NCBI RefSeq assembly: GCF_900112205.1
Contig: NZ_FOKW01000004.1
Location: 248,001 to 312,000 of the forward strand
DNA length: 64,000 bases
Direction: 5' to 3'
From: Natronobacterium haloterrestre
Lineage (GTDB): Archaea; Halobacteriota; Halobacteria; Halobacteriales; Natrialbaceae
Of this stretch, positions 20,180 through 29,550 are shown in pieces. The position numbers and the translations under genes are program-made. Each line of letters begins with the position of its first letter. Position 1 is the first letter of the stretch. The notes beneath the pieces are model-generated. The model was given only the letters and a program-made list of their open reading frames with translations. It ran no database searches and was not told the DNA's origin.

Positions 20180-20327
20180 CGCTGGTTTTCCGTTCGGCCC
20201 CGTCGTGGACACCCGTTTCATAGTGAAAGCCCTCGCTTAGAGACAGTTTCGCGGCCTTTAGAAACCAGTATTGGACTAACACAACCGAGAATTCGCAACC
20301 GAATTTGCTCTACACCAAACACAATTG

Positions 20328-20335
20328 TTTTAGGG
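20328..20335 (+). promoter_or_regulatory. TATA-like box of the cbiT operon
   Basis: ttttaggg centred about 27 bases before the cbiT ATG, within a 178-base intergenic region that is AT-rich by local standards (caaacacaattgtttt). The spacing predicts a leaderless mRNA. An imperfect inverted repeat (gagaattcgc / gaatttgctc) lies just upstream and is a possible regulator site. Confidence 0.5.
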
Positions 20336-20357: not shown

Positions 20358-20936
20358 ATGTCATCCATCGCGTTGCCACACGACGCGAAGGCCGGACCGA
20401 CGAAACCCGAGGTTCGGGCCGTCCTCCAGTCGAAACTCGCGCTCGAGGAGGACGACCACTTCGCGGAGGTCGGCTCCTGTACCGGGGCCGTCACGATCGA
20501 CGCCGCACGGAAGGCGGGACGCGTGACTGCCCTCGAGCGGAAGGCCGACCGGCTCGAGACGACCGAGAAGAACCTCGCGGCGAACGCCGACTCGACGCGG
20601 GCGGAGGTCGAGTTGCGAAACGCGGAAGCCCCCGCGGGGCTCCCGGACGACGCCGACGCGCTCTTTCTCGGCGGGAGCCGCAACTTCGAGGCAGTGCTCG
20701 ATCACGCCGTCGAGACTGGAATCGACCGGATCGTGATGAACGTCTCGCGGCTCGAGGTGGCGGGCGCCGCGGCGGAGGCCTTCCGCGAGCGCGACCTCCT
20801 CGAGGAGGTCGTCCAGTTCCAGGTGAGCCACGGCTACGAACTCGCCGGCGCGACGAGTTTCGACGCGGACAACCCGGTGTACATGCTCGTCGGGAGCGCG
20901 AGCGAGGGGTGCGCGGACGGAGGTGACCCGCGATGA
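20358..20936 (+). CDS. cbiT: cobalt-precorrin-6B C15-methyltransferase (decarboxylating) CbiT
   Basis: 192 residues, class I SAM methyltransferase fold. The SAM motif is HFAEVGSCTGAVTIDAA (family usual DIGxGTGxxxxE, here VGSCTG), with GRVTALERKADRLE supplying the ribose-binding acidic residue. DALFLGGSRNFEAVL is the CbiT FIGG motif (LGGS). It adds the C-15 methyl and removes the C-12 acetate carboxylate. First gene of a long operon; its TGA overlaps the cbiL ATG (ATGA). The start follows from the TATA spacing. Confidence 0.9.
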   Translation: MSSIALPHDAKAGPTKPEVRAVLQSKLALEEDDHFAEVGSCTGAVTIDAARKAGRVTALERKADRLETTEKNLAANADSTRAEVELRNAEAPAGLPDDADALFLGGSRNFEAVLDHAVETGIDRIVMNVSRLEVAGAAAEAFRERDLLEEVVQFQVSHGYELAGATSFDADNPVYMLVGSASEGCADGGDPR

Positions 20937-21808
20937 CGCTGTACGGCGTCGGGCTCGGCCCCGGCGACGCCGACCTCGTGACCGTCCGCGGGAAGCGCGT
21001 CCTCGAGCGGGCGGACGTCGTCTACTCGCCGGGACGGCTCTCCCGGACGGTCGCGCTCGAGCACGTCGACGAATCGACGATCGGCGACCTCGAGTTCCCG
21101 ATGACCAGAGACGAGGAGAAGCTCCGCAGCGCCTGGAAAGCGGCCGCCGAGGAGGTGGCGTCGACGGCCGCCGACGGCGACGTCGCGTTCGTCACCCTCG
21201 GCGATCCGAACGTCTACTCGACGTTCGGCCACCTGCGCCGGACGATGGCGGCGTTTCACCCGGACGTAGACCTCGAGATCGTGCCCGGGGTCAGCGCGGT
21301 GACCGCGTTCGCGACCGCACTCGGCGTCGAGATCGAGGCCGGGGCGGGACTCGCGTTGCGGGAAGCCGCCGGCGGCGCGAGTCCGACCGGCCCGGACCGG
21401 ATGATCCTGTTCAAGGTCACCGACGCGCCCGCGACCCACGAGGGGCTCGCCGAGGCCGGCTACGAGGTGACCTACGGCCGGCGCCTGTTCATGGAACAGG
21501 GCGAGACGGTCGTCACCGACGACCCCGACGCGATCGCCGAGCGGGACTACTACACGCTCGCCTACGCCGAACGGGCCGACCTCGAGGTCGAGCCGGCGAC
21601 GGCGGCCTTCGAGACCGAGATCGAGACCGAGTCCCCGAGCGGCGACGGCGCGACCGATCCCGAGTCCGGCGCGGAGACGGACGCGAGCGCGACGCTCGAG
21701 ACGACAGAGCCGATCCGACCCGAGTCTCGGGGCTCCGACCTGGCCGACCTCGAGCGCAGCGAGGCCCTCGAAGGCGGCGACTGGCACCGAGACCGGGACT
21801 GGTACTGA
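20933..21808 (+). CDS. cbiL: precorrin-2 / cobalt-factor II C20-methyltransferase
   Basis: 291 residues. Tetrapyrrole methylase with YGVGLGPGDADLVTVRGKRV at the N-terminus, FVTLGDPNVYSTFGHL, the GDPxxYST motif characteristic of CbiL/CobI, and IVPGVSAVTAFATALG. It adds the C-20 methyl, the first dedicated methylation after precorrin-2. The family domain ends near residue 220; the rest is a ~65-residue acidic low-complexity tail ending in DWHRDRDWY. It overlaps cbiF by TGATG. Confidence 0.92.
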   Translation: MTLYGVGLGPGDADLVTVRGKRVLERADVVYSPGRLSRTVALEHVDESTIGDLEFPMTRDEEKLRSAWKAAAEEVASTAADGDVAFVTLGDPNVYSTFGHLRRTMAAFHPDVDLEIVPGVSAVTAFATALGVEIEAGAGLALREAAGGASPTGPDRMILFKVTDAPATHEGLAEAGYEVTYGRRLFMEQGETVVTDDPDAIAERDYYTLAYAERADLEVEPATAAFETEIETESPSGDGATDPESGAETDASATLETTEPIRPESRGSDLADLERSEALEGGDWHRDRDWY

Positions 21809-22698
21809 TGACCGGAAACACGGACGCAGACGGCGAGGATCGTATCGATACCGACGGGGAGCCCGGCCTCCCGGGCGACCTCGACGAGCGGATCCGCGAT
21901 CACAGCGCCGGCGACGAGCAGGAGGGGATCCCGTTCGTCGGCGCCGGCCCCGGCGATCCGCGGCTGCTGACCGTCGCCGGGAAGGAACTGCTCGAGGACG
22001 CGGACCTCGTGGTCCATGCCGGCTCGCTGGTCAACAGCGAACTCCTCGAGGCCTACTGCGACGACGCCGACCTCGTGAACTCCGTCGGCAAGGACCTCGA
22101 GGAACTCGTCCCCCTGATGCGGGACGCCTACGAGGAGGGCCGGACCGTCGTCCGCCTCCACAGCGGCGATCCCGCGATCTACGGGGCCGCCCTCGAACAG
22201 ATGGACGCCCTGGAGAGCGAGGGTGTGCCGACCTATTTCGTTCCGGGCGTCACCTCCGCGTTCGCGGCAAGCGCGACCCTGCGGACGCAACTGACGCTCA
22301 ACGAGGTGGCGAACCACGTGGCGTTCACCCGCCCGCAGGGCAAGACCCTGAGCGAGGAGGAAGACCACGTCTCCGAGTTCGTGGAGATGGGCGACGTGAC
22401 GACCTGCATCTACCTCGGGACCCACGCCGTCCGGGAGACGATGGAGCGGCTGCTCGCGGACGGCCACGACCCCGAGACGCCGGTCGCGGTGGTCTATCAC
22501 GCCTCCTGGCCGGACGAGGACGTGATCGTCGGAACGATCGACGACATCGCGGACAGGGTCGAGGCGGCCGGCTACCGCGCCTCGGCACTGGTCGTCATCG
22601 GCGAGGCCGTGACGGGCGCGGGCTACGAGCGGTCCTACCTCTACGGCGACTGGGCGAATCGCGGCTCGAACGACGCCGACGAAGCCGAAAGCGACTGA
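21808..22698 (+). CDS. cbiF: precorrin-4 / cobalt-precorrin-4 C11-methyltransferase
   Basis: 296 residues. PFVGAGPGDPRLLTVAGKE and the following ADLVVHAGSLVNSELL are the CbiF/CobM-specific signature. Others are RLHSGDPAIYGAALEQM, VPGVTSAFAASATLRTQLTL and ITRPQ-like FTRPQGKTLS. It methylates C-11. The first ~35 residues form an acidic leader ahead of the fold. It is coupled to cbiL by TGATG and is seven bases from cbiG. Confidence 0.93.
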   Translation: MTGNTDADGEDRIDTDGEPGLPGDLDERIRDHSAGDEQEGIPFVGAGPGDPRLLTVAGKELLEDADLVVHAGSLVNSELLEAYCDDADLVNSVGKDLEELVPLMRDAYEEGRTVVRLHSGDPAIYGAALEQMDALESEGVPTYFVPGVTSAFAASATLRTQLTLNEVANHVAFTRPQGKTLSEEEDHVSEFVEMGDVTTCIYLGTHAVRETMERLLADGHDPETPVAVVYHASWPDEDVIVGTIDDIADRVEAAGYRASALVVIGEAVTGAGYERSYLYGDWANRGSNDADEAESD

Positions 22699-22705
22699 CA
22701 TCGAC

Positions 22706-23689
22706 ATGAGTACGGACGACACCACTGAGACGGAAGACGGATCGGACGGCGGTCACTGCTCGACGCCGGACTCGGACGGCGAGGTGGCCGAAGAGATCGC
22801 GATCGTCGCCTTCGAGCGCAAGCTGGCGACCGCCGAGGAGATCGCGGCCGAGCTCGCGGACCGCTACGAGACGATCGAGATCCTCGAGTACCACGGCGAC
22901 GTCTTCGAGGAGCACTGGGGCGAGTACGACTGTTTCGTCGGTCTGATGGCCTCGGGCATCGCGATGCGGAAGACGGCCCACCTGCTCGACGACAAGTGGG
23001 AGGACCCCGCGATCTGCGTCGTCGACGAGGAGTTGACGTGGGCGATCCCGATCACGGGCGGCCACCACGGCGCGAACCAGGTCGCACAGGATCTGGCGAC
23101 GATGGGTGCCGTGCCGGCGATGACGACCGCGAGCGAGGCCGCCGGCAAGCAGGGCGTCGAGTCCCGCGCGAAGGCGATGGACGCCCACGTCGTCAACGGC
23201 GACTCGACCGTGCAGACGAACCTCGCCGTGCTCGACGACGAACTCGGCCCCGTCGCCCGGCTCGACGGCCCGAAGGCAGTGCTGGTCTGCGACGACGTGA
23301 CGGTCCTGAAACGGAACACGGACGAGGGCATCGTCATCGGTACGGGCAGCGTCTCCGGCGCGAGCAGGGAGGCCTTCCTCGCAGCCTGGAAGGAGGCCCT
23401 CGAGCGAACCGAGTACGGGTTCGCGGACGTCGAGTTCGTCGCCACCGCGACGCGGAAGGAAGACGAGGAGGGGCTGCTCGAGGCGGCCCGGGAGCGCGAC
23501 CTGGGCGTCGTCACGTTCGACAAGGAGACGCTGCTCGAGCACGAGGGGCCGACGCCCTCGAAGTCGAAGGAGCTGATCGGCTGGCCGGGCGTCTCCGAAG
23601 CGAGCGCGATCGCCGGGGGACGCGAGCAGGAACTCGTGCTCGAGAAGATGGGTTACGAGGACGAGGTAACGGTGGCGATCGGCCGATGA
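22706..23689 (+). CDS. cbiG: cobalt-precorrin-5A hydrolase CbiG
   Basis: 327 residues. Central motif AIPITGGHHGANQVAQDL matches the GGHHGAN substrate region of CbiG; CFVGLMASGIAMRKTAHLL precedes it. The C-terminal CobE-like domain includes IVIGTGSVSGASREAFLAAW and SEASAIAGGREQELVLEKM. CbiG opens the delta-lactone and removes C-20 as acetaldehyde. The N-terminal ~25 residues are an acidic extension. Its presence indicates the anaerobic-type ring contraction even though cobN (aerobic type) is also present. It overlaps the next gene by ATGA. Confidence 0.9.
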   Translation: MSTDDTTETEDGSDGGHCSTPDSDGEVAEEIAIVAFERKLATAEEIAAELADRYETIEILEYHGDVFEEHWGEYDCFVGLMASGIAMRKTAHLLDDKWEDPAICVVDEELTWAIPITGGHHGANQVAQDLATMGAVPAMTTASEAAGKQGVESRAKAMDAHVVNGDSTVQTNLAVLDDELGPVARLDGPKAVLVCDDVTVLKRNTDEGIVIGTGSVSGASREAFLAAWKEALERTEYGFADVEFVATATRKEDEEGLLEAARERDLGVVTFDKETLLEHEGPTPSKSKELIGWPGVSEASAIAGGREQELVLEKMGYEDEVTVAIGR

Positions 23690-24561
23690 GCGCCGAGAAC
23701 GCCGCCGCGGACACGACCGGGGGCACCCCCGACGACCACGGCACCCTCTACGTCGTCGGCATCGGCCCCGGACTGCCCGCTCACATGACCCAGCGCGCGA
23801 AGTCGGTCATCGAATCCGCGGACGTCGTCATCGCCTCGAGCCTCTACCAGGAGTTCCTGCGCGAGGACGGCACGATTCCGCCGGAGTCACGGACCGACGA
23901 GGACGGGGTCGCGACCCGGGAGGACGGGAGCCAGCAGGAGATCGTCCGATCGACGATGGGCCGCCAGATCGAACTCGCCCGCGCGGCGTTCGACTACGTC
24001 CGCGAGGGGAAGACGGTCGCCCACGTCTCCGGGGGCGATCCCTCCGTCTACGGCAAGTCCGACCTCATCTTCAAGATGGCCGAGGAGGAGTCGGCGACGG
24101 ACGTCCCGATCGAGATCGTTCCCGGAGTGACGGCGGCGCTCGGCGGAGCCGCAAACGTCGGCGCGCCCCTTTGCAACGACTTCTGTACGGTCTCGCTGTC
24201 GGACAAGTGGCGCGGTTGGGACGAGATCGAGGAGAAACTGCGGGCCGCGGCGGTCTCTGACTTCGTGATCGTCCTCTACAACTGCTGGCGCAACTACGAG
24301 CGGGCGGTCGAGATCGTCCGCGAGGAACGCACGGACGACGCCCTCGTGGCGATCGTCAACGACGCGGGCCGTGCGGACGCCGGCCGTAACGGCGAGAGCC
24401 AGCACGTGACGACGCTCGGCGAGGCGGCCGACCACGACGACAAGGTGTCGGGGATGGGCACTTCGCTGATCATCGGCACCCACGAGACCGCGACCTGGAG
24501 CAACGACGACCGAACGTACCTCGTCACCCCGCGCGGCGGGCGTGACGTCGACGATTTCTGA
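23686..24561 (+). CDS. cbiH: precorrin-3B C17-methyltransferase family protein, divergent paralogue (CbiH1)
   Basis: 291 residues. Tetrapyrrole methylase: LYVVGIGPGLPAHMTQRAK, VAHVSGGDPSVYGKSDLIF, IEIVPGVTAALGGAANVGAP and CTVSLSDKWRGWDEIEEKL. The layout is that of CbiH/CobJ, but key segments differ from the canonical paralogue next door: the usual NPxSxxR strand reads VLYNCWRNYERA and the GDP motif is followed by KSDLIFKMAEEE. It is probably a C-17 methylase or a paralogue recruited for another methylation. Coupled to cbiG (ATGA) and seven bases from cbiH2. Confidence 0.82.
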   Translation: MSAENAAADTTGGTPDDHGTLYVVGIGPGLPAHMTQRAKSVIESADVVIASSLYQEFLREDGTIPPESRTDEDGVATREDGSQQEIVRSTMGRQIELARAAFDYVREGKTVAHVSGGDPSVYGKSDLIFKMAEEESATDVPIEIVPGVTAALGGAANVGAPLCNDFCTVSLSDKWRGWDEIEEKLRAAAVSDFVIVLYNCWRNYERAVEIVREERTDDALVAIVNDAGRADAGRNGESQHVTTLGEAADHDDKVSGMGTSLIIGTHETATWSNDDRTYLVTPRGGRDVDDF

Positions 24562-24568
24562 CCGACAC

Positions 24569-25573
24569 ATGAGCATGGAGACAGACACGGATACGGACGC
24601 GGACGCCGACACCGAAACGGGCGAATCGACATCGAACTGCGGCGCGTCGAGCGCCGATTCGGAGACCGACCGCTCGAGTTCGAAGTGTGGCGCCTCGAGT
24701 TCCGACGACTCGAGCGGGTCGAAATGCGGCGCCTCGAGCGGAAGCGACGACGACTCGAAGGAACAGGAGGTCGGGGCGACCGTCGAGGACTTCGACGCCG
24801 ATCCCGGCCAACTCGTGGCCGTCGGCCTCGGCCCCGGCCAGCCGGAGGGGATGACCGAGCGCGCGAAGACGGCGCTGCACGAGGCCGAACACATCGTCGG
24901 CTACACGACCTATATCGAACTGCTGCCCGACGAGATCACCGAAGGAGCCGACGAGATCTACGACACGCCGATGTGCGGCGAGGTCTCCCGCACGGAGGAG
25001 GCGATCGACCGGACGCTCGCGGGCAACGACGTGGCGATCGTCGGCAGCGGCGACCCCAACGTCTACGCGCTCGCCGGGCTGGCACTCGAGATCCTCGAGT
25101 CCAAGGGCGCGACGGCGACGATGGTCGACTTCGAGGTCGTCCCGGGCGTTCCCGCGGCCCAGTCCTGTGGCGCCCGGCTCGGCGCGCCGCTGGTGAACGA
25201 CACCGTCTCGATCTCGCTGTCCGATCACCTCGTGCCGATGCCCGAGATCGAATCCAGGCTCCACGCGGCCGCGAAGGAGGGCTTTACGATCACGATCTAC
25301 AACCCCTGGAGCCGGAAGCGCCGCGAGAACTTCGAGAAGGCCTGCGAGATCCTCCTGACCCACCGCGACGAGGATACCCCGGTCGGCATCGTCCACGGCG
25401 CGGGCCGCGAGGACGAAGCGGTGGTGATCACCGAACTGGGCGAGCTCGAGGAGTTCGGCGAGCGCGATATCGTCGACATGACGACGACGATCGTCGTCGG
25501 GACCGAGGACACCTACGTCTGGGACGACCGAATGGTACGGCCCCGCGGCTACGAGACGAAGTACGACTACTGA
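24569..25573 (+). CDS. cbiH: precorrin-3B / cobalt-factor III C17-methyltransferase, canonical paralogue with Cys-repeat N-terminus (CbiH2)
   Basis: 334 residues. From about residue 85 it is a canonical CbiH/CobJ: LVAVGLGPGQPEGMTERAK, AIVGSGDPNVYALAGLALEI, VVPGVPAAQSCGARLGAP, TVSISLSDHLVPMPEIESRL and ITIYNPWSRKRRENFEKA. It adds the C-17 methyl and contracts the ring. The first ~75 residues are a Ser/Asp-rich extension with three near-identical motifs, SNCGASS, SKCGASS and SKCGASS, spaced about 15-20 residues apart. Each brings one Cys and the set is unlike any family domain I know. The start is at MSMETD; METD is also possible. Confidence 0.88.
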   Translation: MSMETDTDTDADADTETGESTSNCGASSADSETDRSSSKCGASSSDDSSGSKCGASSGSDDDSKEQEVGATVEDFDADPGQLVAVGLGPGQPEGMTERAKTALHEAEHIVGYTTYIELLPDEITEGADEIYDTPMCGEVSRTEEAIDRTLAGNDVAIVGSGDPNVYALAGLALEILESKGATATMVDFEVVPGVPAAQSCGARLGAPLVNDTVSISLSDHLVPMPEIESRLHAAAKEGFTITIYNPWSRKRRENFEKACEILLTHRDEDTPVGIVHGAGREDEAVVITELGELEEFGERDIVDMTTTIVVGTEDTYVWDDRMVRPRGYETKYDY

Positions 25574-25586
25574 CTCCATAAACCAC

Positions 25587-25853
25587 ATGCCACGATACGA
25601 AATAACGATCGAGAAGGACGCCTGCGACGGGATCTTCGCCTGCCTCACCCGGGACCCGCGCTTCGTGGAAGCCGCGGACGGACTGGCGACGATCGATCCC
25701 GACGCGGACCCGGTCTACGACTGCGACGGCGAGGTCAGCGACGACGGCGAGCGCGTGGTGGCCGCGTTCGACGACGAACGTATCGACGAGGCCAGACGGG
25801 CGGCGGCCGCCTGTCCGACGGACGCGATCGTCGTCGAGGAGGTGGACGAATGA
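25587..25853 (+). CDS. small ferredoxin-like iron-sulfur protein
   Basis: 88 residues. Begins YEITIEKDACDGIFACLTRD and ends RRAAAACPTDAIVVEE, the two halves of a single-cluster bacterial-type ferredoxin fold. Cysteines fall at positions 13, 19, 46 and 76 rather than in a CxxCxxC row, so the cluster is either [3Fe-4S]-like or an atypical [4Fe-4S]. Its position inside the cobalamin operon suggests an electron donor for a corrin reductive step, for example the missing precorrin-6A reduction or cobalt reduction; this is inference. Coupled to the next gene by ATGA. Confidence 0.75.
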   Translation: MPRYEITIEKDACDGIFACLTRDPRFVEAADGLATIDPDADPVYDCDGEVSDDGERVVAAFDDERIDEARRAAAACPTDAIVVEEVDE

Positions 25854-26614
25854 GCGAGACCGACGATACGGACGAACCGGTCGAGGCCGGCGCTCTCGAG
25901 GTCGAGGTCCCGGCCGATCCCCTCGCCGGCCACCCGGCGTCGGCGTACTTCTGGGGACAGGTCGCGGGCGGCGGTCGCGTCTCGGAAGACGGCCTCGAGG
26001 TCGTCACCGGCGACGAGCGCGCCGCCCGCGTGCTCGCGGCGATCGCGGGGGCGGACGGGGACGATCTCGACCGCGAGACCACGAGCCGCGAGTACGCCCA
26101 CGATGCCTCGATCACGCGGACCGAAGAGGAGTACACGCTCTCGCTTTCGCGCGCCGGAGACGACGGAAAGTTGCTCGGTCGCCGCTCGCCGCTCGGGCTT
26201 CCCGTCGACGGCCGCGGGAACTACCGGTTCGGCGCGTTCGCCGATTACCGGCGCGAACTCCTGCGGGGTCTGCTCGAGGGCTGTGGCACGATCTGTTTCA
26301 AGTCCTCGAGCGGGACCGTCGGAGTCTCGTTCGTCCACGAGGACCGGGGGCTCCTCGAGAGCGTCCGCGATCTGATCGCCGACTGCCCGATCGACGCACC
26401 CTGTGACGACGTCGCGGAGACCTCCTCGGGGAGCTACTGGTTCGGCGTCGCCGACGACGCGGTCCCCGCGTTCGGACGCTGGCTCTACGAGACCGCCGAG
26501 GAGACCGGCCTCTACGCGCCGAGTCGCTGCCGAAAACTCGAGCGCAGCCTCGAACAAGCGGGCGTCGCCGACGGTAACGGTGCCGACGCGGGTTCGGGAG
26601 GTGAACGGGCGTGA
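25850..26614 (+). CDS. cobalamin-operon protein with LAGLIDADG-like fold, catalytic residues lost
   Basis: 254 residues, no named family that I recall. Two segments align with the paired LAGLIDADG helices of homing endonucleases: FWGQVAGGGRV (residues 34-44), followed by a strand LEVVTGDERAARVLAAI, and LRGLLEGCGTI (138-148), followed by VGVSFVHEDRGLLESVRDLI. In an active enzyme the eighth letter of each motif is the metal-binding Asp/Glu; here it is Gly41 and Cys145, so DNA cleavage is not expected. Five cysteines lie in the second half (145, 149, 179, 185, 227). It overlaps the ferredoxin and cbiX genes, so it is a fixed operon member rather than an inserted element. A corrin-pathway enzyme, scaffold or regulator are all possible. 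Confidence 0.7.
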   Translation: MSETDDTDEPVEAGALEVEVPADPLAGHPASAYFWGQVAGGGRVSEDGLEVVTGDERAARVLAAIAGADGDDLDRETTSREYAHDASITRTEEEYTLSLSRAGDDGKLLGRRSPLGLPVDGRGNYRFGAFADYRRELLRGLLEGCGTICFKSSSGTVGVSFVHEDRGLLESVRDLIADCPIDAPCDDVAETSSGSYWFGVADDAVPAFGRWLYETAEETGLYAPSRCRKLERSLEQAGVADGNGADAGSGGERA

Positions 26615-27828
26615 CGGACGCGGCGGCGACCGGCGTCGACGACGAAGCCGTCCTCCTGGTCGGGCACGGCTCGCGACGCGAGAAGTCCAACGAACAGGTC
26701 CGGGAACTGGCCGCCGGCCTCGAGTCGCGACTCGGCGTCCCCGTCGACGCCGCCTTCCTCGAACTCGCGAAGCCGTCGATCGAGGACGCGATCGCCGACC
26801 TCGCGACGGTCGTCTCGGAACTGACGGTCGTTCACTGCTCGCTGTTCGCCGCGAGCCACGTCAAGAACGACGTCCCGGTCTCGATCGAGCAGGCGCGTGC
26901 GGAACACGACGGCCTGACGATCAACAACGGCAGGCACCTGGGGATCCACCCGGCCATGCTCGAGGTGCTCGACGACCGCGCCGCCGCGGTCGAGCGGGAC
27001 CTCGGCGTCGACCGCGAGGAGGACGAGGTCGCGGTCGTGCTCTGTGGCCGGGGCTCGAGCGATCCGGACGCAAACGCCGACGTCCACAAACTCGCTCGCC
27101 TCCTGTACGAGGGACGGGGGTTCGGCCGCGTCGAGGCCTCGTTCGTCGGCGTCACGGAGCCGACCCTCGAGGAGACGTTGCACGACCTCTCCAAACACCG
27201 GCCGGACGCCGTCGTCGTGCTCCCCTACATGCTCGGGGACGGCGTCCTCACCCAGCGGGTACGGGACTGGACGGCCGACTTCGACGAGGACTACCCTTAC
27301 GTCGACGCACTCGCGGGCGAGCCGCTCGGGACCGACTCCCGGCTGCTCGACGTCTTCGCCGACCGGTGGCAGGAGGCCCGCACGGACAGCGTCGAGATGT
27401 CCTGTGACACGTGCAAGTACAAGGTCGGCCTCGAGGGCTACGAGGAGGACGTCGGCGGCGCTCGCGCCATGCTGCGTGCGCTGACCCACCGGGAGAGCCA
27501 CGCCGACCGCGACGACGTCGACGACGAACCCCACAGCCACGACGCGCCCGCGAAACACGTCGCCGTCTGTACGAACCGGACCTGTGCCGAGGCGGGCGCG
27601 CCGGCCGTCCTCGAGCGCCTGCGGCAGGCGGTCCGGGACGCGGACGACTGCGACGCACGGGTCACGCGCTCGTCCTGTCTGGGACGGTGCGGCGACGGCC
27701 CGATGGTCGCGGTCTATCCCGACGGGATCTGGTACGGCGACGTCGCCGAAGACGACGCCGGCCGGATCGTCGGGGAGCACCTCACCGACGACCGGATCGT
27801 CAGCGACCTCGTCGACCAGACGCTGTGA
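26611..27828 (+). CDS. cbiX: sirohydrochlorin cobaltochelatase CbiX fused to a [2Fe-2S] thioredoxin-fold domain
   Basis: 405 residues. Two chelatase half-domains: the first with VLLVGHGSRREKSNEQVREL and VVHCSLFAASHVKNDVP, the second beginning AVVLCGRGSSDPDANADVHK and containing VLPYMLGDGVLTQRV. The first half keeps the catalytic His of GHGSR; the second has CGRGSSD in its place. After a His/Asp-rich linker (about 290-310) comes a C-terminal domain with CTNRTCAEAGAPAVL and SSCLGRCGDGPMVAVYPDG, the cysteine pattern of thioredoxin-like [2Fe-2S] ferredoxins. A further SCDTCKYK pair precedes the linker. It inserts cobalt early, into sirohydrochlorin, making this genome contain both early (CbiX) and late (CobN) chelatases. 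Confidence 0.88.
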   Translation: MTDAAATGVDDEAVLLVGHGSRREKSNEQVRELAAGLESRLGVPVDAAFLELAKPSIEDAIADLATVVSELTVVHCSLFAASHVKNDVPVSIEQARAEHDGLTINNGRHLGIHPAMLEVLDDRAAAVERDLGVDREEDEVAVVLCGRGSSDPDANADVHKLARLLYEGRGFGRVEASFVGVTEPTLEETLHDLSKHRPDAVVVLPYMLGDGVLTQRVRDWTADFDEDYPYVDALAGEPLGTDSRLLDVFADRWQEARTDSVEMSCDTCKYKVGLEGYEEDVGGARAMLRALTHRESHADRDDVDDEPHSHDAPAKHVAVCTNRTCAEAGAPAVLERLRQAVRDADDCDARVTRSSCLGRCGDGPMVAVYPDGIWYGDVAEDDAGRIVGEHLTDDRIVSDLVDQTL

Positions 27829-27896
27829 GTATCGAACGCCAACCGACTTCGACTACACGACGAAACCACACGACGAAACCACGAGATCAGACATGA
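27825..27896 (+). other. 23-codon bridging mini-ORF between cbiX and the DUF3209 gene
   Basis: A GTG overlapping the cbiX stop (GTGA) opens a frame that ends in the TGA overlapping the ATG of the DUF3209 gene (ATGA), so a ribosome could pass through without a gap. The peptide is rich in Thr, Arg and Asn and basic, unlike real proteins here. A direct repeat (acgacgaaaccac, twice with small change) makes up the middle. A coupling device or chance. Confidence 0.35.
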
Positions 27897-28264
27897 GCTG
27901 CCACGAAATCGAAGCGCTACGACTCGGACTGATGAACGTCCTCGGCGTCGGGGACGACAGTGACCGCGAACACGCACGACAGGAACTCGAGGGCCACCTC
28001 GAGGGGCCGATCGAGGGACTCGTCGAGGCCGACAGCCTGGCCGAGATCGAACGCCACCTCGACGCGGCCCTGGTCGACCTCGAGAGCGACCTCGCCGCGA
28101 CGGAGGCCGACGACCCCGCCTACGACTACACGCGGGGGCGACTGCTCGAGCTTCGAAACGCCGAGCGCGCGGTAAAGCGGTTACGAACGCAAGGCGAGAG
28201 CGTCGTCGATGGGCTCGGCGAGGCCCACGACGCGCTCCACGAGACGTTCCCGGTCGAAGAATGA
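27893..28264 (+). CDS. DUF3209-family protein
   Basis: 123 residues, almost entirely helical. It begins MSCHEIEALRLGLMNVLGV, the start I recall for DUF3209, a small family that repeatedly sits beside cbiX and other cobalamin genes in haloarchaea and some bacteria. The early Cys-His pair (residues 3-4) and Glu5 could bind metal, so a cobalt chaperone or storage role is conceivable, but nothing in the sequence proves it. Later residues form heptad-like helices (RLLELRNAERAVKRLRTQGE). It overlaps the beta-propeller gene by ATGA. Confidence 0.8.
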   Translation: MSCHEIEALRLGLMNVLGVGDDSDREHARQELEGHLEGPIEGLVEADSLAEIERHLDAALVDLESDLAATEADDPAYDYTRGRLLELRNAERAVKRLRTQGESVVDGLGEAHDALHETFPVEE

Positions 28265-29550
28265 GCGCGAGGGACACCGGGACGGGCGACCGGCCGCTCG
28301 GCGGGGAGTTCCGTCGACGGTCGCTCGGCGATATCGAGCCGGCTCGTACCCGCCACATGCGGACGCGGTCGGCCGTCCGCGTCTCGGACGAGGGGATCTT
28401 CGCGGGGACGCGGGACGGGACGGTGACCGCGTACGGTCGGGACTCCCTCGAGCCACAGTGGTCTGCGACCCACCCGGGCCGGCCGGTCGGAATCGCGACC
28501 CTCGAGGGAGCGGACGAACGGACGGTCATCGTCGCCGGCCGCGGCGAACGCGGGGCAATCGTCGCCTACGACGCGGAGACGGGCGACTCACGCTGGCGAT
28601 ACGACGCGGCCGAGGACGTCGGGGATCCCGCCGACACGGGGGTGTTCGCCCTCCCGTACGTCGTCGCGCTCGAGTCCGACGGCGACGGCGGCCTGTACGC
28701 CGCGGCCAGGCGCTACGAGCGCGACGGCGACGAGCGCCGCTGGGAGAGCGTCGTCTACGCGTTCGGGGCCGACGGGACGGTCCGCTGGCGATACGGGACC
28801 GACGCGTCGCCGATCGCGATCGACCTGGATACTGCCGAGGGGGCGGATCGGGTGGCGGTCGCGTACAACCGCTGTCCCGGCCGACACGACAACGGCCTGG
28901 TCGTCCTCGGGGCCGAGACGGGCGACCTCGCCTGGACCTGGGACCCCGGAACCGACGGCGAGCGCCGCGTTGGCGACGTCTCCCTCGAGGGCGGCCGCGC
29001 AGCGGTCGCGAGCCACGGGGACAAGCGCGGCTACCTGCTCGAGTCCGGCGGAGCCGAACGGTGGCGGGTCGACCTCGCCGTCGAGACCGAAATCGGCGCG
29101 GAGACGCTGTACGCCTATCCGAACCACGCGTGTCTCGCGGACGGCACCGTCGCCTTCGCGACCGGGAACACGTACGCCGAAGAGGGTCGCGGGACGGAGC
29201 ACCGGCACCCGAACGAGCATCGCCTCGCGGTCGTCGACGCCGAGACGGGCGACCCGCTGTGGGACGCCGATCTCGGCGGGTTCGTGAACGGGCTCGCGTC
29301 CGACGACGGGACGCTCGTCGCCCCCTGTGCACAGAACTTCCGCGTCCGCGATCCTGACACCCACGCGGTGCGCTGGTTCGACCTCGAGTCCGAGTCGGGG
29401 GGCGCGGCTGGCACGGAGCGATTCGACGGGATCGCTGCGGCGGCCGCGATCCACGACGGGACGATCGCCGCGATCGAGGAGCCGGTCGAGTACCACGACG
29501 AAGGAGAGACCCGCGGCGAGTACGCCCTCCACGTCGGATCGGTCGTCTGA
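28261..29550 (+). CDS. cytoplasmic PQQ-like beta-propeller protein of the cobalamin operon
   Basis: 429 residues. At least five repeats of the PQQ/BamB propeller blade, each with a strand set around an AxDxxTGxxxW core: AYDAETGDSRWRYD, AFGADGTVRWRYG, VLGAETGDLAWTWD, AVVDAETGDPLWDAD, and the first as AYGRDSLEPQWSA. There is no signal peptide, Tat motif or lipobox, unlike most such proteins, so it should act in the cytoplasm. It is joined to DUF3209 by ATGA and followed by a T-run, so it is the last gene of the cobalamin operon. It might bind a corrin or scaffold the enzymes; function unknown. Confidence 0.8.
   Translation: MSARDTGTGDRPLGGEFRRRSLGDIEPARTRHMRTRSAVRVSDEGIFAGTRDGTVTAYGRDSLEPQWSATHPGRPVGIATLEGADERTVIVAGRGERGAIVAYDAETGDSRWRYDAAEDVGDPADTGVFALPYVVALESDGDGGLYAAARRYERDGDERRWESVVYAFGADGTVRWRYGTDASPIAIDLDTAEGADRVAVAYNRCPGRHDNGLVVLGAETGDLAWTWDPGTDGERRVGDVSLEGGRAAVASHGDKRGYLLESGGAERWRVDLAVETEIGAETLYAYPNHACLADGTVAFATGNTYAEEGRGTEHRHPNEHRLAVVDAETGDPLWDADLGGFVNGLASDDGTLVAPCAQNFRVRDPDTHAVRWFDLESESGGAAGTERFDGIAAAAAIHDGTIAAIEEPVEYHDEGETRGEYALHVGSVV

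Follow-up and report, generated by a model that had tools for sequence, protein, structure and literature searches.

By fold, the closest described systems to the protein reported here are of two kinds. Archaeal homing endonucleases, such as I-Tsp061I, I-DmoI and PI-PfuI, are monomeric proteins with a two-repeat alpha-beta-beta-alpha-beta-beta-alpha fold and paired motif helices. WhiA (DUF199) is a LAGLIDADG-derived regulator, whose LAGLIDADG-derived domain is no nuclease, lacks the catalytic residues and is fixed in cellular genomes. The haloarchaeal protein studied here, which we call X, resembles the former in its architecture and the latter in its fixed, non-nuclease state. Unlike the endonucleases, however, X lacks the catalytic acids (the second of them is a cysteine), lies outside any intron or intein, and is a fixed gene of an operon. 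Unlike WhiA, it has no HTH domain and no Pfam WhiA match, is restricted to Halobacteria in our samples, is tied to a cobalamin operon, and carries an invariant Cys149 and a near-invariant Cys145.

The pathway served by that operon is incomplete on paper. Haloarchaeal cobalamin synthesis has two consecutive gaps, EC 2.1.1.195 (the CbiD step) and EC 1.3.1.106 (the CbiJ step), and Pfeiffer and Dyall-Smith (PMC8305020), who list both, call the unassigned cluster genes HVO_B0052, HVO_B0053, HVO_B0055 and HVO_B0056 obvious candidates. By gene order, which is the sole basis of the orthology, X corresponds to HVO_B0055 of Haloferax volcanii; in that paper HVO_B0055 occupies the same slot as X, between HVO_B0056 (at the ferredoxin position) and cbiX1 (HVO_B0054). 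The idea that this protein fills a gap is already published for the Haloferax orthologue, and a LAGLIDADG fold for HVO_B0055 or X appears, to judge from the consulted portions of the paper, to be unreported. Within the part of the literature that our search covered, we found no paper joining LAGLIDADG with cobalamin biosynthesis and none naming DUF3209.

The cobalamin operon and the gene for X

The window, by which we mean the whole stretch of 64,000 nucleotides that was analysed, comes from a haloarchaeal genome on the Natrialbaceae side. On its forward strand, which carries every window feature described below, the operon, a cobalamin operon of the cobalt-early kind, begins with the gene for CbiT (20358..20936; TIGR02469, E 2.9e-25) and continues with those for CbiL (20933..21808; NF004063, E 9.2e-136), CbiF (21814..22698; TIGR01465, E 2.6e-76), the cobalt-precorrin-5A hydrolase CbiG (22706..23689; NF004465, E 3.9e-139), and two CbiH paralogues, CbiH2 (23686..24561; TIGR01466, E 4.3e-58) and CbiH1 (24542..25573; TIGR01466, E 2.7e-91), the latter a methyltransferase of the CobJ/CbiH type with a Cys-rich N-terminal tail of CGAS repeats. 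There follow a single-cluster ferredoxin (25587..25853; Pfam Fer4_15, E 5.8e-13), X itself (25850..26614), and a CbiX chelatase (26611..27828; Pfam CbiX, E 3.1e-46) with a C-terminal [2Fe-2S] thioredoxin-like domain at residues 314-387 (Pfam 2Fe-2S_thioredx, E 1.7e-7). The helical protein DUF3209 (27893..28264; Pfam PF11483, E 3.7e-49), a further member of the module by alignment and by an AlphaFold2 model that matches 2ehw, comes next, and a PQQ/BamB-type beta-propeller protein (28261..29550; Pfam PQQ_2, E 6.2e-14) ends the cluster.

The gene for X encodes 254 amino acids from an ATG start. Its beginning overlaps the end of the ferredoxin gene by ATGA (25850-25853), as an earlier note on this DNA had it; that note gave ATGA for the downstream overlap as well, but the letters shared with the start of cbiX are GTGA (26611-26614). 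RefSeq names relatives of X either 'cobalamin biosynthesis protein' or hypothetical.

Fold and former active site of X

The reading frame, an AlphaFold2 model, fold matches and a family alignment together identify X as a two-repeat, nuclease-dead protein of the LAGLIDADG fold. The model, computed from an alignment of 32 relatives, has a pLDDT of 87.5 and a pTM of 0.85. In its secondary structure (H, helix; E, strand) the first repeat comprises H29-41, E42-45, E48-53, H56-65, E73-81 and E89-100, and the second H128-145, E146-151, E156-163, H166-177, E196-200 and H202-213. According to DSSP, both motif helices run straight into a strand and are followed by a strand, a helix and a strand, which is the LAGLIDADG order. 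The earlier note had read two segments as paired LAGLIDADG helices, each with a strand and helix in the right order behind it, and the motifs, FWGQVAGGG at residues 34-42 (25949..25975) and LRGLLEGCG at residues 138-146 (26261..26287), indeed lie where it placed them and in agreement with the predicted elements.

When the model was compared with solved structures, all 45 Foldseek matches in the PDB with E < 0.001 were homing endonucleases, inteins, maturases or WhiA. VIA-align placed I-Tsp061I (2dch) first, with a Z of 14.7 over 190 residues, followed by PI-PfuI (14.6), WhiA (14.3 for 8dy7_I and 12.3 for 3hyi) and I-DmoI (14.0). The comparison with I-DmoI and WhiA that had been proposed as a check thus returns the LAGLIDADG fold, and a search of a viral structure library again yielded LAGLIDADG and intein proteins.

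Sequence comparison reaches less far, though what it gives points the same way. The Pfam family LAGLIDADG_3 (PF14528) matches 13 of 30 relatives of X, with a best E of 2.7e-5, the matches shown member by member all lying under the curated cut-off; for the X of the window, the only Pfam match at E up to 1 is to this same family at residues 132-177, over the second motif, and is weaker than the cut-off (E 0.19). A profile of 30 relatives searched against PDB sequences gave chance matches only, so that solved LAGLIDADG structures were not reached by sequence alone. Aligning the family with a single haloarchaeal intein by hhalign showed no similarity, as was also the case for two unrelated controls, in what is a weak comparison (a one-sequence template, Neff 2.8). 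Since hhalign finds no significant internal repeat between the two halves of X (E 0.059, probability < 1%), the claim of two repeats rests on the model. Given that predicted structure, the membership of X in the LAGLIDADG fold superfamily, with paired motif helices in two repeats, is well supported.

Both metal-binding acids of the nuclease site had been said to be replaced, by Gly41 and Cys145, and the alignment and column counts agree. Among 136 homologues, position 41 holds Ser in 76, Asp in 43, Asn in 9, Gly in 7 and Ala in 1. At position 145, among 137 distinct homologues, there are 133 Cys, 2 Ala, 1 Ser and 1 Thr, and never an acidic residue. Judged from these columns, Gly41 is a detail of the lineage, and Cys145 is a nearly fixed feature of the X family. 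Cys149 (codon 26294..26296), in the strand that follows the second motif, is invariant in 137/137, as are Gly140, Glu143, Gly146, Gly158, Ser160, Phe198, Tyr213, Arg226 and Lys229; Ala32, Tyr33, Trp35, Gly36 and His84 are invariant among all sequences that cover those positions. The strands of repeat 2 have a mean entropy of 0.35-0.44 bits, versus 1.30-1.73 bits for repeat 1, and residues 147, 149 and 151 presumably lie on the former DNA-binding surface, to judge from LAGLIDADG structures generally. Conservation thus falls mainly in one half of the fold, which fits a single site for a ligand or partner in the second half better than a two-sided reader of DNA. That X is a nuclease-dead protein, retained for another role, is well supported.

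Clusters with and without X

Among 391 sampled Halobacteria genomes, X was found in 204 and CbiG in 210, with 202 having both. CbiG occurs without X in eight genomes (G002, G045, G047, G063, G286, G334, G335 and G374), and X without CbiG in two (G333 and G355), of which G355 is 88% complete and has its X at a contig end. A phylum sample of 393 genomes contained no convincing relative outside Halobacteria (the weakest match listed has E 0.006), and none was found in viral contigs.

A survey of the neighbourhood in haloarchaea, one of the checks put forward earlier, gives a constant picture. In the 80 named loci, save at contig ends and frameshifts, CbiH1 is followed by the ferredoxin, X, the [2Fe-2S] CbiX and DUF3209; we refer to this arrangement as type A. 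Almost every named locus thus has the ferredoxin on one side of X and that CbiX on the other. The link with the ferredoxin is real, therefore, and it extends to the [2Fe-2S]-tailed CbiX, to DUF3209 and to the Cys-rich tail of CbiH1.

A different cluster, type B, is found in seven of the eight X-less genomes; it reads cbiT-L-F-G-H2-H1 and is devoid of ferredoxin, X and DUF3209 in the stretches read. In all eight, there is a CbiX with a His-rich tail (10-14 His per 30 amino acids) and no 2Fe-2S domain; the 89 CbiX proteins that do carry the 2Fe-2S domain have at most 6 His by the same tail count. The His-tailed CbiX genes of G334 and G374 stand apart from the cluster. The N-terminal CGAS(S)-repeat tail of CbiH1 (24542-24780 in the window) is present in most clusters with X and in G002, and absent from all seven of type B.

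The eighth X-less genome, G002, is of the window's own genus. Its cluster is of type A and, X apart, complete, since ferredoxin, [2Fe-2S] CbiX and DUF3209 are all present; it carries tandem CbiX genes (L097:12703-14888), a His-tailed one in the exact slot of X and then an intact [2Fe-2S] one. On the CbiH1 tree, the presence of X amounts to two changes, one between type B and type A, and one independent loss, in G002, inside type A. Conversely, G333 has lost CbiG, CbiC and CbiX altogether, and stubs of CbiH1 and CbiX flank an intact X (L195:9994-10767), which gives pairwise dN/dS values of 0.18-0.20 against its relatives, versus 0.13 between the other two members of the genus. An intact X in a genome without the cluster suggests either a recent loss of the pathway or a use of X outside it. 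In another genome, G046 (L100:10444-13453), X is found away from the cluster, between a rhodanese-domain gene and two genes for transporters that look like cation diffusion facilitators, the rhodanese being the only one of these identified by profile.

The chelatase and DUF3209 occur together beyond the haloarchaea as well. In plasmid-borne cobalamin clusters of Thermus (L212:13930-15393) and Leptospira (L213:5811-7372), CbiX directly adjoins DUF3209, as in the haloarchaeal module, and the Thermus CbiX ends in a Cys-containing domain of the same kind as the haloarchaeal one. These clusters differ from those of haloarchaea in that X is not beside the pair, no ferredoxin precedes CbiX, and CbiD is present. 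DUF3209 has a homologue of solved structure, 2ehw (TTHB059), and Cys3, His27, His55, His112 and His116 are kept in 27/27 aligned DUF3209 sequences. Since the CbiX-DUF3209 pair exists in bacteria without X, it is presumably the older part of the module, joined in haloarchaea by X and the ferredoxin amid proteins rich in potential metal and Fe-S ligands; type B clusters would use a His-rich tail instead. Separately, the Leptospira cluster contains, between DUF3209 and CbiD (L213:7378-8127), an FAD-dependent oxidoreductase that is a possible precorrin-6A reductase other than CbiJ.

Possible roles of X

The gene content leads us to favour, tentatively, a role for X as a putative accessory of cobalt handling or insertion in B12 synthesis. 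We favour it because a His-tailed CbiX goes with the absence of X, in G002 in X's own slot, and because the X-type module is the one accompanied by DUF3209 and a Cys-rich tail on CbiH1. X would act with the neighbouring ferredoxin and the [2Fe-2S]-tailed CbiX at the cobalt-insertion end of the pathway. Repeat 2 and the adjoining helix ends would form a putative pocket, comprising Cys145, Cys149, Ser160, Ser192-Ser193, Trp197, His84, Arg226 and Lys229, that may bind a metal, a tetrapyrrole or a partner protein, and in clusters that lack X, the CbiX with its own His-rich tail would do the job of X. The link to cobalt insertion is a correlation of gene content across two changes on the tree, that is, across few independent events, and so far as sequences can tell, we regard it as credible though somewhat short of probable. 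Two observations count against it. The CbiX-DUF3209 pairs of Thermus and Leptospira have no X beside them, so that a chelatase of this kind does not as such require it; and the X of G333 is intact and constrained after the loss of CbiG, CbiC and CbiX.

A more specific proposal is that the former Mg2+ site has been rebuilt with Cys and His ligands, and that X serves B12 synthesis as a catalyst or chaperone by binding cobalt or a cobalt-corrinoid. This is possible, but we consider it doubtful. If it were true, X would be, to our knowledge, the first LAGLIDADG protein to act on a small molecule or metal cofactor, as opposed to nucleic acid or transcription.

Alternatively, X might be the missing corrin-ring enzyme itself, performing either the C1 methylation (EC 2.1.1.195) or the reduction of precorrin-6A (EC 1.3.1.106), the latter as a reductase fed by the ferredoxin. 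We know of no LAGLIDADG protein that catalyses the methylation or reduction chemistry of corrins, and X matches no SAM-binding or NAD(P)H-binding family in Pfam. In its favour, neither step has a recognised enzyme in haloarchaea, some of the Cys, His, Glu and Arg residues of X are invariant, a ferredoxin is encoded next door, and X is among the four unassigned cluster genes that the literature calls obvious candidates (PMC8305020). The absence of a recognisable CbiJ/CobK and CbiD, which the earlier note had reported, is confirmed: no match to CbiJ (PF02571) or CbiD (PF01888) exceeds the cut-off in the window's own genome or in any of the 61 genomes surveyed, and X itself matches neither at E up to 1.

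The X-less genomes, however, speak against such an enzyme. All eight keep a cbiT-L-F-G-H-H cluster, a CbiX and CbiC, with CbiD and CbiJ again not above cut-off, and in seven of them the cluster lacks the ferredoxin and DUF3209 as well. From these clusters it follows that X is not the enzyme for the gap steps, barring another way of filling the gaps or a loss of B12 synthesis in the genomes concerned. Thus, X as a general gap-filler is not supported under the same proviso, the unassigned corrin step suggested for it earlier does not hold as a general rule, and we think it unlikely that X is the missing enzyme. Since type B clusters do without ferredoxin and DUF3209, these two are weakened as gap candidates in the same way; the second CbiH, which is common to both types, is untouched by the argument.

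It is conceivable, too, that X has no ligand of its own and is a scaffold that docks the ferredoxin and the methyltransferases or CbiX. The overlaps on both sides of X, which would couple its translation to that of its neighbours, the constancy of those neighbours and the dispensability of X in eight genomes are all compatible with a scaffold, but docking would seem to need fewer invariant polar and cysteine residues than X has at its former active site and close to it, and we hold this explanation to be rather improbable.

A regulator of the WhiA kind, sensing cobalt or a corrinoid and controlling the operon, was another suggestion of the earlier note. WhiA chains are among the best fold matches of X (Z 14.3), and G333 retains X although the pathway is gone. 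A strongly conserved dyad, CAA-N6-TTG followed by TTTTA, also precedes cbiT (20316..20332), with a second copy in the window at 20296-20307; an upstream second copy is frequent in other clusters. The dyad is conserved in X-bearing clusters of many haloarchaeal families, but it is equally present in all eight X-less clusters, so its upkeep is independent of X, and the operon regulator was rejected as a first choice on this account. X has, furthermore, no HTH or WhiA match in Pfam at E up to 1; past residue 236 the model has nothing folded beyond a 3-residue turn, and past residue 238 only a low-confidence tail. Its conservation lies largely in one half of the saddle, unlike that of a reader of two-sided sites, and its net charge is as acidic as that of the cluster enzymes. 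Given the dyad, the missing HTH and the one-sided conservation, a corrin-sensing protein that binds its own promoter is not supported, and a regulatory role for X is rather improbable. As for the dyad itself, part of it may be core promoter, to judge from the TATA-like TTTTA; the copies at 20296-20332, common to types A and B, may serve the cobalamin operon as an operator or as its core promoter.

Finally, it is extremely improbable that X is a parasite of the operon, a homing endonuclease that still cuts DNA or did so until recently. The LAGLIDADG fold speaks for this, as does the one acidic catalytic residue that survives in 43 of 136 homologues. Against it, the second catalytic residue is never acidic; the slot of X is the same from family to family and lies between genes rather than within one; X has no relative in viral contigs and no convincing one outside Halobacteria in the phylum sample; and it is under purifying selection (omega 0.13-0.20 in one genus). 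The dead site, the common slot across families and the presence of CbiG in 202 of the 204 genomes with X agree with the earlier view of it as a domesticated member of the operon.

X adds a clear example of how the fold of a parasitic nuclease has been taken up into a vitamin operon. For haloarchaeal B12 synthesis, in which two steps are without an enzyme, the survey shows that clusters keeping both gaps exist without X and mostly without the ferredoxin and DUF3209. The search for the missing enzymes should therefore shift to the genes that no cluster lacks, the second CbiH among them.
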